Source: Blastococcus mobilis (lineage in GTDB: Bacteria; Actinomycetota; Actinomycetes; Mycobacteriales; Geodermatophilaceae). From it: DNA of 64,000 nt. The notes beneath the pieces are model-generated. The model ran no database searches and was not told where the DNA came from. It saw nothing but the letters and a program-made list of their open reading frames with translations. Below, piece after piece: positions 486-6,632 of this stretch. A program made the translations under genes and the position numbers. Position 1 is the first letter of the stretch, and every line of letters begins with the position of its first letter. The stretch lies in NCBI RefSeq assembly GCF_900188025.1, contig NZ_FZNO01000003.1, positions 1-64,000 on the forward strand, given 5' to 3'.

Positions 486-1352
486 ATGCCCGTGAAGAAG
501 CGACGCATCGGGGACGTGACGGTCAGCGCGATCGGCCTCGGAGCGATGCCCCTCTCCACCAAGTCCGACCGGCCCTCACGGGAGGACGCCGTCGGCGTCG
601 TCCACGCCGCCTTGGACGCCGGGGTGACGCTGATCGACACCGCCGACGCCTACGCCCGCGACGAGTCGGAGTTCGGGCACAACGAGACGCTGGTCGCCGA
701 GGCGCTCGCGTCCTACGGCCCCGGTGCGGCGGACGTGCTGGTCGCGACCAAGGGCGGCCACACCCGCCAGGGCACGGACTGGGGCCTGGACGGCTCGTCG
801 GCCTACCTGCGCCGGGCCGCCGAGGACTCGCTGCGACGGCTGGGTGGGGACGCGATCGGGCTCTACCAGTACCACCGGCCCGACCCCGAGACGCCGTGGG
901 AGGAGTCGATGGGCGCGCTGCGGGCGCTGGTCGACCACGGGCTGGTGCGCATGGTCGGGGTCTCCAACGCCGACATCGCGCAGATCGACGTCGCCCGCTC
1001 GGTGATCGGTGACGCCTTCGTGAGCGTGCAGAACCAGTTCTCGCCGGGCTGGCGGTTCTCTGCCGACGAGCTCGAGCACTGTGCGACGCACGGATTGGCC
1101 TTCATCCCGTGGAGCCCGTTCGGGGGCGTGAGCGCGGCCGGCTCGCTGGACTCCGCCGCCCCGGCGTTCGCGGAGGTCGCCGACGAGCTGGGCGTCTCGG
1201 TGTACCGGGTGGCGCTGGCCTGGCACCTGGCGCAGGCCGACGTCGTGCTGCCCATCCCCGGGGCCTCACGGGCGGCGTCCATCCAGGACTCCGCGGCGGC
1301 CGCCGACCTCACGCTCACTTCCGACCAACTGGCCCGCCTGAACGCCGGCTGA
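486..1352 (+). CDS. Aldo/keto reductase
   Basis: Probable cytosolic NADPH-dependent oxidoreductase of the AKR superfamily, about 288 residues, the normal size. The catalytic tetrad can be placed: Asp and Tyr in [10 protein letters not shown], Lys in LVATKGGHT and His in [10 protein letters not shown]. The late [16 protein letters not shown] segment matches the cofactor-binding end of the barrel. ATG 486 is preferred because it starts the conserved beta-hairpin ([17 protein letters not shown]); ATG 450 would overlap the rarA start region. Substrate cannot be deduced. It begins the accessory block between rarA and aspS. Confidence 0.88.
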
Positions 1353-2020: not shown

Positions 2021-2039
2021 GGGCAGTCAGGCCGCCGAG

Positions 2040-2099
2040 TGAGCAGTTGGTGCCGCCGACACGCGTGGACACGCCCGCACGACCGACCACTACTGCTCA
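2040..2099. repeat. 60-bp inverted-ended repeat, left copy
   Basis: A 60-bp unit that begins TGAGCAGTTGGTG and ends with ACTGCTCA, so its termini are inverted repeats (TGAGCAGT/ACTGCTCA). A second 60-bp copy in the same orientation lies at 3075-3134; the two match at about 50 of 60 positions. The inner part repeats CGACACG/GGACACG. The two copies bracket the broken DUF559 gene. Confidence 0.75.
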
Positions 2100-2183
2100 G
2101 CCGGTGGATCCACACGTCCCGCCGTTGTCCACGGATGGCGAAACGGTCCCCATCGACGGTCACGCACGCCCGACGCTCCGCAG

Positions 2184-3052
2184 ATGGACTCCTCGGAGCT
2201 GCCGCCCTCCTACACCCGGCAGCAGGCACTGGCCGCCGGACTGACCAGGTCGCAGCTCAGGACGGACGGAGTCCGGGTGAGTCGCGGCGCCTACGTCTCC
2301 CGTTCGGTGCCGCTCGGCGTGTTCGCTGCGTGCTGTGCGCTGTTCCCGGTCCTGCCCTCGGCGGCCGTCTTCTCGCACGCCACGGCGGCCGCGTTGCTCG
2401 GTGCACCCGTGCCGCACGACTGGCCCTGGCCGTGAGTCTGCCGCCGGGTGTCTACCGACCACGGCGGCGCCGCGTCCGCGCGCACGTCCGGGACCTGACC
2501 GACGAGGACGTCGTCCACCACCGCGGGCTGCCGCTGACCAGCGGACCGCAGACCTGGCTGGACCTCGCCACGCTGGTGCCACCACCGGAACTGCTGGCCG
2601 TCGGCGACGACCTCATGCGGCGAGGTCACCTGCACCCGACTGCCCTGGCCCGTCGCCTCGAGCGGGCATCGGGAGCACGCGGGATCGTGTTCGCCCGGCG
2701 GCTGGCACCGCTGCTCACCCCGTCGGCTGCCTCGCGTCCGGAGAGCCTGGTCCGGTACGCGCTCATCGACAGCGACCTCCCCGACCCGGAGGTCCAGGTG
2801 CCGGTCCTGAGCGTGCGGGGACGGCCCGTCGCGCACGCCGACCTGGGCTACTCGCGCTGGAAGGTCGCCCTCGAGTACGAAGGCCGGCACCATGCCGAAC
2901 GCGGCCAGTTCGACCGAGACCTCGAGCGGTACTCGCTGATGGCGGCCGACGGCTGGCTCGTCCTGCGATTCGGACGCGGCGTCCTGGGACGCCTCCACGC
3001 CGTCGTCGAGCGGACGCGTCGGGCCTTGGTCAGCCGGGGCGCCACCTGGTGA
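2184..3052 (+). pseudogene. AbiEi-N/DUF559 endonuclease-like gene, broken by one-base frameshift
   Basis: Two frames together encode one protein of about 290 residues. The first, from ATG 2184, reads MDSSELPPSYTRQQALAAGL (AbiEi-like winged-helix start) and stops at 2433-2435. The second, entered near 2424, reads LAVSLPPGVYRP onward to 3052. Adding one base in the CCC run at 2424-2426 restores HDWP-LAVSLPPG. The C-terminal half has the DUF559/Vsr-like nuclease core: SRPESLVR, HADLGYSRWKVALEYEG and DRDLERYSLMAADGWLVLRF, with acidic residues as expected for PD-(D/E)XK folds. It lies inside two 60-bp repeats. A sequencing error is the main alternative to a true pseudogene. Confidence 0.8.
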
Positions 3053-3074
3053 AGCTCAGCGCCGACCAGCCGAC

Positions 3075-3134
3075 TGAGCAGTTGGTGTCGCCGACACGGG
3101 CCGACACGCCCGGCCGAGCGACCGGAACTGCTCA
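3075..3134. repeat. 60-bp inverted-ended repeat, right copy
   Basis: Second copy of the 60-bp element, beginning TGAGCAGTTGGTG and ending AACTGCTCA. Here the terminal inverted repeat is nine bases, TGAGCAGTT/AACTGCTCA. It starts 22 bases after the DUF559 stop codon and ends just before the convergent aminotransferase gene. Confidence 0.75.
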
Positions 3135-3151
3135 CTCGACGGCAGCGACGC

Positions 3152-4240
3152 TCAGCGGCCGAGGACGTCCTCGAGCGCGGCCAGCACGAGCGCCACCTTG
3201 TCGGGGGTGGCGTTGGCGCCCATGAGCCCGATCCGCCAGACCGTGGTCGCGTGGGCGCCCACTCCCCCGCCGATCTCGATGTCGAAGCGTTCCAGCAGCT
3301 CCTTGCGCACGGCGGCCGAGTGGACGCCGTCGGGCACCTTCACCGTGGTCAGCTCCGGCAGCCGGTACCCCTCCGCGGCGAACAGCTCGAGCCCCAACTC
3401 CTGCAGGCCGGCGTGCAGCAGCCGTCCGGCCTCCTCGTGGCGGGCGTGGACGGCGTCCAGTCCCTCGTCGAGGATCCGGCCCAGGCCCGCATGCAGGGAC
3501 ACGACCATGCCCGTGGGCGCGGTGTGGTGGTAGGTCCGGCCGGACCCCGTGGCCTCGCCTGCGTACCCACCCAGCAGACCGAGGTCGAGGTACCAGCTCT
3601 GCGGCTTCCCGATCCGCCGCCCCCACGCCCGATCGCTGATGGTGAAGGGCGCCAGGCCGGGTGCGACACCCAGGCACTTCTGCGAGCCGGAGTAGGCCAG
3701 GTCGACACCCCAGTCGTCCAGCTGGACCGGGATGCCACCGAGCGAGGTCACGCAGTCGGCGAGCAGCAACGCATCGCCCTTGCCGGCCCCGAGCGGCTCG
3801 AGGTCGGACCGGACGCCGGTGGAGGTCTCGGCGTGGACGGCGGCGATCACCTTCGGGGCGGGATGCGCGGCCAGCACCCGCTCGGCGTCGACCGGCTGTC
3901 CCCACTCGTGGTCCACCCGGACGACCTGGGCGCCGCACCGGGAGGCGACCTCGACCATGCGCTCGCCGAAGAGCCCGTTCACCGCGACGACGACGACGTC
4001 GCCGGGGCCCACGGTGTTGACGAACGCCGCCTCCATGCCCGCCGAGCCGGTCGCGGACAGCGGCAGAGTGCGGCGGTTCGCCGTTCCGAAGACGTGCCGG
4101 AGCCGGTCCGAGGTCTCGTCGAGGATCGCCAGGAACACCGGGTCGAGGTGCCCGAGCAGCGGCTGCCCGAGGGCCACCGTGGCCTCCGGGTAGGGGTTGG
4201 ACGGTCCGGGTCCGAGGAGGGTACGGGCGCGCAGCGACAT
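3152..4240 (-). CDS. PLP-dependent alanine-glyoxylate/serine-pyruvate aminotransferase family protein
   Basis: Class-V fold-type-I aminotransferase of 362 residues, close to the usual 360-400. The N-terminal LLGPGPSNPYPEATVALGQP and HLDPVF signature is typical of alanine-glyoxylate/serine-glyoxylate enzymes. The cofactor aspartate lies in LLLADCVTSLGGIP and the Schiff-base lysine in YSGSQKCLGVAPGLA; the substrate-binding YHHTAPTGMV and RIGLMGANA near the end also fit. ATG 4240 is preferred (GGGGGC upstream); an earlier in-frame start at 4273 would overlap the caspase gene. It lies ten bases after the caspase stop on the same strand, so it may be cotranscribed. Amino donor is not known. Confidence 0.87.
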   Translation of the reverse strand: MSLRARTLLGPGPSNPYPEATVALGQPLLGHLDPVFLAILDETSDRLRHVFGTANRRTLPLSATGSAGMEAAFVNTVGPGDVVVVAVNGLFGERMVEVASRCGAQVVRVDHEWGQPVDAERVLAAHPAPKVIAAVHAETSTGVRSDLEPLGAGKGDALLLADCVTSLGGIPVQLDDWGVDLAYSGSQKCLGVAPGLAPFTISDRAWGRRIGKPQSWYLDLGLLGGYAGEATGSGRTYHHTAPTGMVVSLHAGLGRILDEGLDAVHARHEEAGRLLHAGLQELGLELFAAEGYRLPELTTVKVPDGVHSAAVRKELLERFDIEIGGGVGAHATTVWRIGLMGANATPDKVALVLAALEDVLGR

Positions 4241-4250
4241 GCCCCCGACG

Positions 4251-6254
4251 TTATCGGGAGCCGATCGGGTCACCCTCGAGCCGCCGGCCCGTGCGCGCCT
4301 GGGAGAGGTAGCAACCGGCCAGCGAGCAGACGACCGACACCAGTGCCACCACGGTCGCTCGGGCGTCGACCGGAAAGTTGTCGATGACCAGCGCCTGGAC
4401 GTGGCCCGATGCCACCCACACGGCGAGAACGGTCGCGGTGGCCAGCCCGAACAACCGCTGGGCGCGGTCGAGGTCCAGGACCACCACGGGGAAGCAGACG
4501 GCGGCCAACAGCAGCGCCGGTTCGTTGAACGTCAGCCACGGCGACGCCTCGTCCTGCGCGGTCAGCCAGGCCGCGAGGCCACCGACGACGAGCAGCACAC
4601 CGCTGAAGGCGCGCCAGTCGCTCCGGACTCCCGGGCGGGCGCGCAGGGACGGTTGCCGGAGCACCACGACCGCGCCGCCCAGGAGGACGACGGCGCCGAG
4701 CAGCGTCGCCCACCACCCCGGCCCTGGCATCTCACTCGTCTCCGGGGTGCGGAAGTAGGCCCAGGTCGCCAGCACCAGGTCCAGCTGGCTCAGAGCCGCA
4801 CCGCCGACCATCCCTCCGGCCAGCGCGACCCCCCACGCGGCGGTTCCCCGCACGACCAGCAACTGGAAGGCGACCAGGAGCGGCAACCCCGCCCCGATCA
4901 CCCAGGAGATCCAGTGGATGCCGTTCTGGAAGTCCGCGGCCACGACCGTGTACGTGCTCTCGAACACCAGGAACCGCGACAGCAGCAGGAGGACGCCGCC
5001 GACCAGGGTGACCGTCAGGAGGAGCGGGAGCGCCCCCGGGGGCTGCGCCTGTGCTGCGTCGTCCGGCCCGGCCGCTCGACCCCGTGTGCGCCCGTCCACC
5101 GTCGGGCCCGCGGGTGTCGCGGATCTCCTCGGCGTGGCCGAGGCGTCGGGTGGCGGCGCCTTCGCGGTCACCGGAGGTCTCCTCGCCGGACCGGAGACAC
5201 CCGAGGCGGCCCCGGTGGTGACCGCCGCAGGTCCTCCCGGAGCCTGCACGGCCCGGGTCTCGGCTGCGGGCTCGCGAACGGTCCGCTCGGAGGACGTCCC
5301 GCCGTCGAGTCCCAGCCGCTCCTGGAGCCCGGACGCGGCGGCTGCGACCGAGCGGCTGTCGTCCGCGGCCAGCACGGCCAGCTGCTCCGCGACCGCCGCG
5401 CGGACGATGTCGTTGCCCGCCCGGTGCAGGTGCTCCAGCTCCTGCACGGCGCTCAGCCGCTGTGCGGCGATCGGGCTCTCGATCACGTGCTGCAGGTGCA
5501 CCGGCAGCGTCCAGTGCACGTTGCGGGCGATGAGGATCCGCCCGTCGACGTCCTCCTGCTTCTTCGGCCGCTGCTGCGGCATCTCGGTCGTCACCCGGTC
5601 GTACACGTAGCTGTACAGCTCGTCGAGCGCGATGTCGCCGTCCTCGTCCAGGTCGGCGGCGCCGCTGCTGATCGCCTCGACCAGGTACCGCGTGAAGACC
5701 GACGACGTCCCGGTGCCGCGCAGGTCGTCGCCCTCGAAGGCGTACTGCGTGGCGTCGGAGGCGGTCAGCACCGCCCGGCCCTTGCCCTGGAAGCGCTCCA
5801 GCGTCTGGACGCCCTCGTCGGCCTTGGCGCGCCGCCCGGACGGGAACGCCCCGCTGTAGCAGCAGTCGAGGATCAGCACCTTGCGCCGCGACGCCGAGGC
5901 GTCCATCGCGTCGTTGAGCTGGGCCCCGGAGATGGCGGTGAACATCAGCGCCGAACGGCGGGTGTTGGTCATCGCGAGGTAGAGGCGGCCCTCGTCGTCC
6001 TTCAGCCCGTGCCCGGTGAAGTAGAGCAGCGTCAGGTCGTCGCGCCGGGCCCCGGTGTAGAAGTCCGCGATCGCCTCACCGACCACGTGGTGCGGTTGGT
6101 TGACCAGCATCGTGACGTCGAAGCCCGCGACGGCCGGGTCCTCGAGGACCGCGGCCAAAGCTTCCGCGTCGTGCTCGGGCGCCGCCAGCCGACGCAACCC
6201 GCCGTCCGCGTACTCGTACGTGGCGACGACCAGCGCCTTGCGGCCGGCGGCCAT
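4251..6254 (-). CDS. Caspase-fold (C14) protease with C-terminal multi-pass membrane domain
   Basis: A 667-residue protein. Residues 1 to about 250 form a caspase/orthocaspase domain with catalytic His82 in LLYFTGHGLKDDEG and Cys132 in LILDCCYSGAF, both dyad residues intact. A helical segment and a Pro/Ala/Arg-rich linker (about 330-405) follow. The C-terminal third contains roughly eight hydrophobic stretches, beginning LPLLLTVTLVGGVLLLLS, that should anchor it in the membrane. It lies three bases after an EACC1-like gene, the pairing described for actinobacterial conflict systems in which proteases act as effectors. Inference: a membrane-tethered, conditionally activated protease causing growth arrest or death. 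No substrate is evident. Confidence 0.88.
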   Translation of the reverse strand: MAAGRKALVVATYEYADGGLRRLAAPEHDAEALAAVLEDPAVAGFDVTMLVNQPHHVVGEAIADFYTGARRDDLTLLYFTGHGLKDDEGRLYLAMTNTRRSALMFTAISGAQLNDAMDASASRRKVLILDCCYSGAFPSGRRAKADEGVQTLERFQGKGRAVLTASDATQYAFEGDDLRGTGTSSVFTRYLVEAISSGAADLDEDGDIALDELYSYVYDRVTTEMPQQRPKKQEDVDGRILIARNVHWTLPVHLQHVIESPIAAQRLSAVQELEHLHRAGNDIVRAAVAEQLAVLAADDSRSVAAAASGLQERLGLDGGTSSERTVREPAAETRAVQAPGGPAAVTTGAASGVSGPARRPPVTAKAPPPDASATPRRSATPAGPTVDGRTRGRAAGPDDAAQAQPPGALPLLLTVTLVGGVLLLLSRFLVFESTYTVVAADFQNGIHWISWVIGAGLPLLVAFQLLVVRGTAAWGVALAGGMVGGAALSQLDLVLATWAYFRTPETSEMPGPGWWATLLGAVVLLGGAVVVLRQPSLRARPGVRSDWRAFSGVLLVVGGLAAWLTAQDEASPWLTFNEPALLLAAVCFPVVVLDLDRAQRLFGLATATVLAVWVASGHVQALVIDNFPVDARATVVALVSVVCSLAGCYLSQARTGRRLEGDPIGSR

Positions 6255-6257
6255 GGC

Positions 6258-6632
6258 TCACGCCGGCTGATGGCGTCGGACGAAGGTCTCGATCAGGTCG
6301 GCCCGCTCGACCGGTGTGGCGTGGCTCAACTCCAGGGTGTCGCCGTCGATGGTGACCGTGACCTTGTGCGCCCCGTCCCGCCGCGAGAGCCACTCCCGGA
6401 TCGTGGCGATGACGGTCACGAAGACGCCGCCACCGCTGCTGAGGGTCACCAGCCACTCGGTCAGCGACGCGGCCGCACCGGACTTCGCCCCGTCCGGCGC
6501 CGGCGCGCCGGCGACCGGTGTCACCTCGTCGACGTCGAGTTCCCGCAACTCGTTGCGCAGCTGCCGGCCGAGGCGCTCCCGGTCCTCCGCATCCGTGCTC
6601 GGATCCGGTTGCAGGACGACCGTGAGCTCCAC
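6258..6632 (-). CDS. EACC1-like effector-associated constant component
   Basis: A 124-residue protein starting MELTVVLQPDPS and followed by a charged segment (DRERLGRQLRNELRELDVDEVTP). A central hydrophobic stretch (LSSGGGVFVTVIATIREWLSRR) precedes a C-terminal small beta domain (VTVTIDGDTLELSHATP). This layout matches my knowledge of Effector-Associated Constant Component 1, a small membrane-associated partner of trypsin- or caspase-type effectors in multicellular bacteria. The partner caspase starts four bases downstream, so the two should be translated together. The assignment rests on pattern and context, not on a search. Confidence 0.7.
   Translation of the reverse strand: MELTVVLQPDPSTDAEDRERLGRQLRNELRELDVDEVTPVAGAPAPDGAKSGAAASLTEWLVTLSSGGGVFVTVIATIREWLSRRDGAHKVTVTIDGDTLELSHATPVERADLIETFVRRHQPA

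Follow-up and report, generated by a model that had tools for sequence, protein, structure and literature searches.

Nuclease genes with an AbiEi-like and a Vsr-like domain are bracketed by cognate palindromes across a bacterial class, suggesting a counterpart of REPIN-RAYT systems

In REPIN-RAYT systems, a single-copy enzyme gene is flanked by palindromic repeats, with one repeat class per enzyme, and the same repeats are scattered in extragenic space as hairpin-forming units (PMC3116915, PMC8049555). The enzymes concerned (i.e., RAYTs) are IS200-like HUH tyrosine transposases that have been described as vertically inherited (PMC3116915, PMC8049555). AbiEi proteins bind inverted repeats (PMC7319586).

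The locus described here lies in a 64,000-nucleotide stretch of the Blastococcus mobilis genome (Geodermatophilaceae; contig NZ_FZNO01000003.1, positions 1 to 64,000; hereafter the window), in which a first-pass annotation had pointed out two 60-bp direct repeats of about 83% identity, with terminal inverted repeats, on either side of a frameshifted DUF559 nuclease gene. Both repeat copies (2040–2099 and 3075–3134) indeed proved to be in direct orientation and identical at 50 of 60 positions. Moreover, alignment with solitary copies and with relatives revealed that the full unit is longer than this 60-bp core and forms an imperfect palindrome of ~72 bp (i.e., CGAGTGAGCAGTTGNGGTCG...core CGACACGNGCGGACACGCCG...CGACCACAACTGCTCACTCG), one on each side of the gene (Table 1), with arms of ~20 bp and a conserved core CGACACGNGCGGACACGCCG. 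The 60-bp repeats are real, each being the core of this palindrome, and the inner arm of the left copy has a single mismatch (TACTGCTCA). Solitary copies fold with z-scores of –6 to –8.6 versus shuffled sequence, and the window copies fold moderately better than their shuffles (z of –2.8 and –3.8). No Rfam family covers the repeats at the gathering threshold.

Table 1. Features at the bracketed nuclease locus of the window.
Feature	Coordinates	Strand	Evidence
Aldo/keto reductase, left neighbour marking the common locus	486..1352	+	Pfam Aldo_ket_red, E 9.6e-63; adjoins most clade loci
Upstream palindrome, type A arms	2034..2105	+	Covariance model R1, 75.3 bits, E 5.8e-13; solitary-copy alignment
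Frameshifted AbiEi-like + DUF559/Vsr-like nuclease gene	2184..3052	+	tblastn and HMM to intact orthologues, 60–68% identity; Pfam DUF559; fold of L052
Downstream palindrome, type A arms	3069..3140	+	R1, 80.3 bits, E 4.2e-14; starts 16 bp past the stop of the gene
Class V aminotransferase, right neighbour marking the common locus	3152..4273	–	Pfam Aminotran_5, E 9.8e-20; adjoins many clade loci

The bracket encloses the DUF559 gene only, and its frameshift was confirmed: the gene is split near position 2432 across two frames (N-terminal part 2184–2432, C-terminal part 2435–3049, stop 3050–3052) and is a single open frame in relatives. Its Pfam DUF559 match falls just under the curated cut-off, and just above it in a six-frame search. 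Elsewhere in the window (4251–6632, minus strand), the stretch between aspS and the aminotransferase gene encodes, on our own reading of the sequence, a presumed caspase-like peptidase whose C-terminus is predicted to lie in the membrane, next to a small protein that presumably resembles an EACC1-type effector-associated component. Since aspS and the aminotransferase gene are adjacent in several relatives, the caspase-like stretch looks like a separate insertion.

The structure of the intact orthologue L052 from Blastococcus haudaquaticus DSM 44270 (genome G002) was predicted with an alignment-based model (mean pLDDT of 93.4). In this predicted fold, the N-terminal part matches the AbiEi antitoxin 6y8q (residues 1–179, Z of 12.9 over 172 residues) and Rv2827c (residues 1–181, Z of 9.4), while residues 183–287 match the catalytic domain of I-Bth0305I (3r3p; Z of 12.6, rmsd of 2.3, 95 residues), the putative endonuclease NGO0050 (Z of 11.8), and Vsr (Z of 10.3). 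Of these, I-Bth0305I acts in homing and Vsr in mismatch repair. Five residues (E187, D220, E231, H237, and D246) are invariant among 48 homologues and would fit an active EDxHD site, E187, D220, H237, and D246 being the ones that we take to form this motif. The open-access literature yielded no assigned function for DUF559 proteins of this architecture.

A profile of the clade (clade HMM) found the gene in 82 of 112 genomes of the family, and for 80 loci the upstream flank of each gene was compared with its downstream flank, independently of the repeat model R1. Among the 78 testable loci (including the window), 65 carried matched upstream and downstream palindromes, each scoring above every coding-DNA comparison, versus only 3 of 216 control genes taken from the same loci (odds ratio 355, p-value of 6e-48). 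These DUF559 genes are thus regularly flanked by matched repeats, as the first-pass annotation had proposed to check. The three passing controls all coincided with the aminotransferase gene position; those at L175 and L266 are flanked by a bracket and, on the opposite side, by a solitary palindrome. When the downstream flanks were reshuffled among genes, the observed mean score of 29.4 was never reached in 5000 permutations (best 16.7), and a chance origin of the matched flanks was ruled out by these permutations together with the coding-DNA background and the control genes. In the remaining 13 of 78 loci no matched pair exceeded the threshold, and many loci missed by R1 turned out to carry palindromes with other arms that still matched on both sides. 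Typically, the upstream palindrome ends ~75–105 bp before the start codon and the downstream one starts ~6–12 bp past the stop codon, as measured with an arm comparison without offset that understates matching and was used for positions only. Pairs of palindromes ~1.02–1.04 kb apart recur, and every pair examined brackets a homologue of the window gene.

This cognate bracketing extends to more distant genes. Among the DUF559 paralogues of the genus, 13 of 17 are bracketed by reading of their flanks, with different arms again. At the level of the class, homologues are present in 259 of 394 sampled genomes, and 24 of 25 valid loci from nine families outside the window's own (best-scoring homologues rather than a random draw) have flanks matched above the 99th percentile of the background, with new arms; 20 of these loci score at least 20, versus a background maximum of 14. 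One locus near a contig end (L348) was left out of this count as its flanks overlap. A separate palindrome family of 56 bp (GATCATGGCGCCGTGACCACC...) occurs as pairs ~1.05 kb apart at G004:C1:651727-652834, G020:C23:260779-261896, and G044:C6:430127-431234; the G004 pair exactly encloses a distant DUF559 gene. At L229 (G107, 2417–3511), the brackets have the common core CGACACGCGCGGACACGCCG with wholly different arms (AAGGCACTCCGTGCC), which suggests that core and arms may evolve separately. Two clade genes (L055 in G014 and L090 in G004) keep the upstream type-A palindrome only, L090 being followed by a different short palindrome; units that have lost a bracket in this way may have become immobile.

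The arms of the brackets were sorted into types labelled A to J, some of which were set by hand from the flanks, and placed on the tree of the nuclease proteins. Type A (23 rows) and type C (20 rows) each form a single clade (support of 99 and 100, respectively) and each spans six genera. Over the whole tree, arm type changes 11 times versus 44 times for shuffled labels. Genus labels require 25 changes, and the genus of the window is scattered (10 rows, 10 changes). Protein phylogeny therefore follows arm type and not genus, indicating that gene and palindrome are co-inherited. The first-pass annotation had regarded the gene as cargo; since arm type tracks the phylogeny of the protein, the gene does not look passive, and the nuclease is suggested to recognise its own ends. 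Where a genome has two typed clade genes (eight cases), their types differ, and no genome has two genes of one type among the typed loci. One genome (G015) combines a type-C gene at the locus (L175) with many type-A solitary palindromes, which would be consistent with replacement of an earlier type-A cassette whose palindromes stayed.

Clade genes were found in six genomic contexts, with 67 genes sharing that of the window (i.e., beside the aldo/keto reductase gene, the aminotransferase gene, or both). Since most bracketed genes occupy this same site family-wide, the brackets at the window locus are largely orthologous, and repeated independent insertion at this locus was not adopted as an explanation. 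Five of the 67 genes are inverted (L223, L230, L231, L234, and L244, in part of genus g3), where the whole bracketed unit is reversed at the same locus, perhaps via recombination between its two palindromes. In several genome pairs whose flanks are 94–96% identical, the window locus holds diverged genes with brackets of different arm types, and homology breaks and resumes ~10–40 bp outside the palindromes. In addition, one genome (G013) has an empty site of 58 bp, and other genomes have internally deleted or frameshifted remnants still beside palindromes. The cassette differences could have arisen without nuclease action, through ordinary homologous recombination in the flanks. The earlier proposal of a small moved unit is partly supported, by the presence of the unit at six loci and by cassettes differing between close relatives.

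Solitary palindromes were examined with R1, a covariance model of the repeat by which one palindrome may count on both strands. R1 matches at about ten places in the genome of the window and in 13 of 16 genomes of the genus, which excludes chance as the source of the repeat. Family-wide, 77 of 112 genomes, from 8 of 12 genera, gave matches (1 to 40 per genome), and a purely local duplication was ruled out by this dispersed, family-wide occurrence. Within the genus, 50 of 53 solitary copies are intergenic versus 26% of random positions, where gene positions were assigned by a simple method based on codon-position GC content. Most lie just past stop codons, at a median of 22 bp from a gene 3′ end, and 6 of the 53 are situated between divergent genes. 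Two 200-kb stretches, both from one of the nine families outside the window's own, contain several palindrome families, including solitary copies with the arms of brackets, versus none in shuffled sequence.

Copies were counted in the 112 genomes by exact arm patterns, for which reversed-pattern controls were at or near zero, and bracket copies (two per cognate gene, or four for R1) were subtracted before testing. With these counts, which are uncorrected for relatedness among genomes, the GATCATGG type has a median of 12 copies with and 0 without the cognate gene (p-value of 6e-8), R1/type A 10 versus 2 (p-value of 2.5e-6), and GATCATCG 4.5 versus 1.5 (p-value of 0.03), while for GCAGTTG both medians are 0 and the mean is higher with the cognate gene (p-value of 0.008). 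This link is correlative, and weak for two of the four types after bracket subtraction. Non-cognate pairings of gene and arm showed no excess in raw copy counts with brackets included. In genus g3, the seven genomes with a second bracketed locus are exactly the seven richest in GATCATGG (14–41 versus 0–12 copies). Some genomes carry palindromes without a detected cognate gene (e.g., G001, G003, and G088). The repeat is common away from any DUF559 gene, an observation that the first-pass annotation had held to speak against its reading; solitary copies are however in excess in genomes with the cognate gene, so that they appear to belong to the system and not to refute it.

Close relatives also differ in which solitary palindromes they have. 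In three genomes, the spacer preceding the aminotransferase gene on its upstream side contains a palindrome (one of type A, two of type C); in others it is short. Over 340 kb of alignment between G100 and G101 (~94.5% identity), one of 16 indels of 40–200 bp is a clean 80-bp difference with a type-C palindrome, and a second one contains a palindrome of unrelated sequence; scores this high are reached by ~1% of random stretches. Neither a target-site duplication nor precise insertion chemistry was seen at the few presence/absence sites compared.

Two alternative explanations would assign the palindromes a role in gene expression. The palindromes might be regulatory operators, bound by the AbiEi-like domain first at its own gene and then across a dispersed regulon, with the nuclease as a fused effector and nothing moving. 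AbiEi and Rv2827c autoregulate via inverted repeats in their promoters (PMC7319586), the N-terminus has a predicted AbiEi fold, and the distance of the upstream palindrome to the start codon in most loci would suit such a role. An equally matched palindrome directly past the stop codon argues against operators, however, as do the polymorphism of copies between close relatives and the position of solitary copies, near gene 3′ ends and seldom between divergent genes, which is the opposite of that expected; we regard this explanation as unlikely. The same positions, directly past stop codons, and the strength of the hairpins would instead favour bidirectional terminators that were selected at gene 3′ ends and occasionally duplicated, with the DUF559 gene as one beneficiary. 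However, gene-specific arms around a conserved core, in step with the phylogeny of a single protein across six genera, are not required for termination, and neither is a type-specific excess of copies. Other genes also lack matched pairs (3 of 216), making terminators very unlikely.

Two further alternatives start from the nuclease. In a homing-like cassette, it would cut solitary palindromes or cassette-less alleles, and repair would copy the bracketed gene in, so that solitary palindromes would be targets or deletion scars. I-Bth0305I being among the top fold matches of the catalytic domain, the different cassettes at one locus with the unit also at five others, and the existence of the empty 58-bp site and of decayed cassettes all point this way. 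Against this, no genome has two same-type genes at typed loci although same-type solitary sites number up to tens, and most units stay at one common locus, so that we judge homing distinctly unlikely. The gene might also be a phage-defence or restriction-type nuclease, with palindromes that mark or protect self DNA or that allow cassette exchange at a diversity locus. PADLOC AbiEi models match the N-terminus of the protein, and the locus holds divergent alleles between close relatives, a pattern that resembles defence-gene exchange. Nevertheless, no partner toxin or methylase is bracketed with the gene in the window, and type-specific dispersed palindromes would be unexpected of a plain defence gene, leaving this as the least probable of the alternatives weighed here.

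The explanation we favour, at somewhat better than even, is a class-wide two-part system of an AbiEi-Vsr nuclease with its own palindrome population, similar to REPIN-RAYT but with an unrelated enzyme. One part would be a gene, present as a single copy, whose product combines a DNA-binding N-terminus of AbiEi type with a nuclease C-terminus of Vsr/EDxHD type, and the other a set of palindromes of ~55–75 bp, two of which bracket the gene while the rest are scattered mostly 3′ of stop codons. Mobilisation of the palindromes by the nuclease is what we infer from these patterns: the N-terminal domain would bind the arms of its own palindrome type, the nuclease would cut at or beside these arms, and subsequent repair or replication would copy or move palindromes in trans, with the gene riding between two palindromes and persisting as one copy per type. 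Such a mode of action, with an HUH transposase as the enzyme, has been described for REPIN-RAYT (PMC3116915, PMC8049555). To the wider proposal, we would give an even chance: in a lineage of AbiEi-Vsr fusion nucleases spread over the class, a capacity to mobilise dispersed palindrome families may have evolved separately from that of HUH transposases, with each nuclease recognising the arm type of its own family and its gene being carried between two palindromes of that type, which would make them a convergent REPIN-RAYT counterpart that also passes between species as a cassette. Since the nuclease gene of the window is broken, its palindromes are probably relics.

No description of a link between DUF559 proteins and palindromes was found in the open-access literature. 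Should the proposed mechanism prove true, bacterial chromosomes could harbour a population of short hairpin elements and its dedicated enzyme in a second, unrelated manner, and some of the palindromic repeats in actinobacterial genomes could be accounted for. The cognate palindromes offer an immediately testable substrate for DUF559 proteins, which are widespread. Moreover, the cognate protein-arm pairs over many genera form a natural experiment on DNA reading by AbiEi-type domains.

Compared with known systems, the unit is not a member of the RAYT, AbiE toxin-antitoxin, or insertion sequence/MITE groups, since each fails a defining feature that was tested. With MITEs and insertion sequences it shares inverted repeats, small non-autonomous copies, and presence/absence behaviour; in contrast to these, the bracket encodes neither a DDE nor an HUH transposase (the DUF559 gene being the sole gene there), and a complete palindrome serves as the repeat on either side of the gene. 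No target-site duplication was apparent at the few sites compared. The AbiEi fold of the N-terminal ~180 residues (Z of 12.9) recalls the type IV toxin-antitoxin system AbiE and Rv2827c, from which the protein differs by its nuclease domain and by the lack of an adjoining AbiEii (DUF1814) toxin gene at the window locus, where the neighbours are the aldo/keto reductase and aminotransferase genes. Its C-terminal fold and conserved acidic and His residues are those of EDxHD/Vsr-like nucleases (i.e., I-Bth0305I, Vsr, and DUF559 proteins), although to our knowledge neither I-Bth0305I nor Vsr is bracketed by its own palindromes. A gene for an EDxHD homing endonuclease would be expected in an intron, an intein, or its own cleavage site; the gene described here is intergenic, between those for the aldo/keto reductase and the aminotransferase, and G013 has the empty site of 58 bp. 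With respect to REPIN-RAYT, the enzyme is not a Y1 (HUH) tyrosine transposase but AbiEi-like and Vsr/EDxHD-like by predicted fold and DUF559 by HMM, and types of gene plus bracket are common to several genera at one locus. Nevertheless, it is with REPIN-RAYT that the unit shares a gene flanked by palindromes (65 of 78 loci in the family, 24 of 25 outside), many extragenic cognate palindromes (50 of 53 solitary copies being intergenic), and one enzyme gene per repeat class (types always differing in the eight two-gene genomes).
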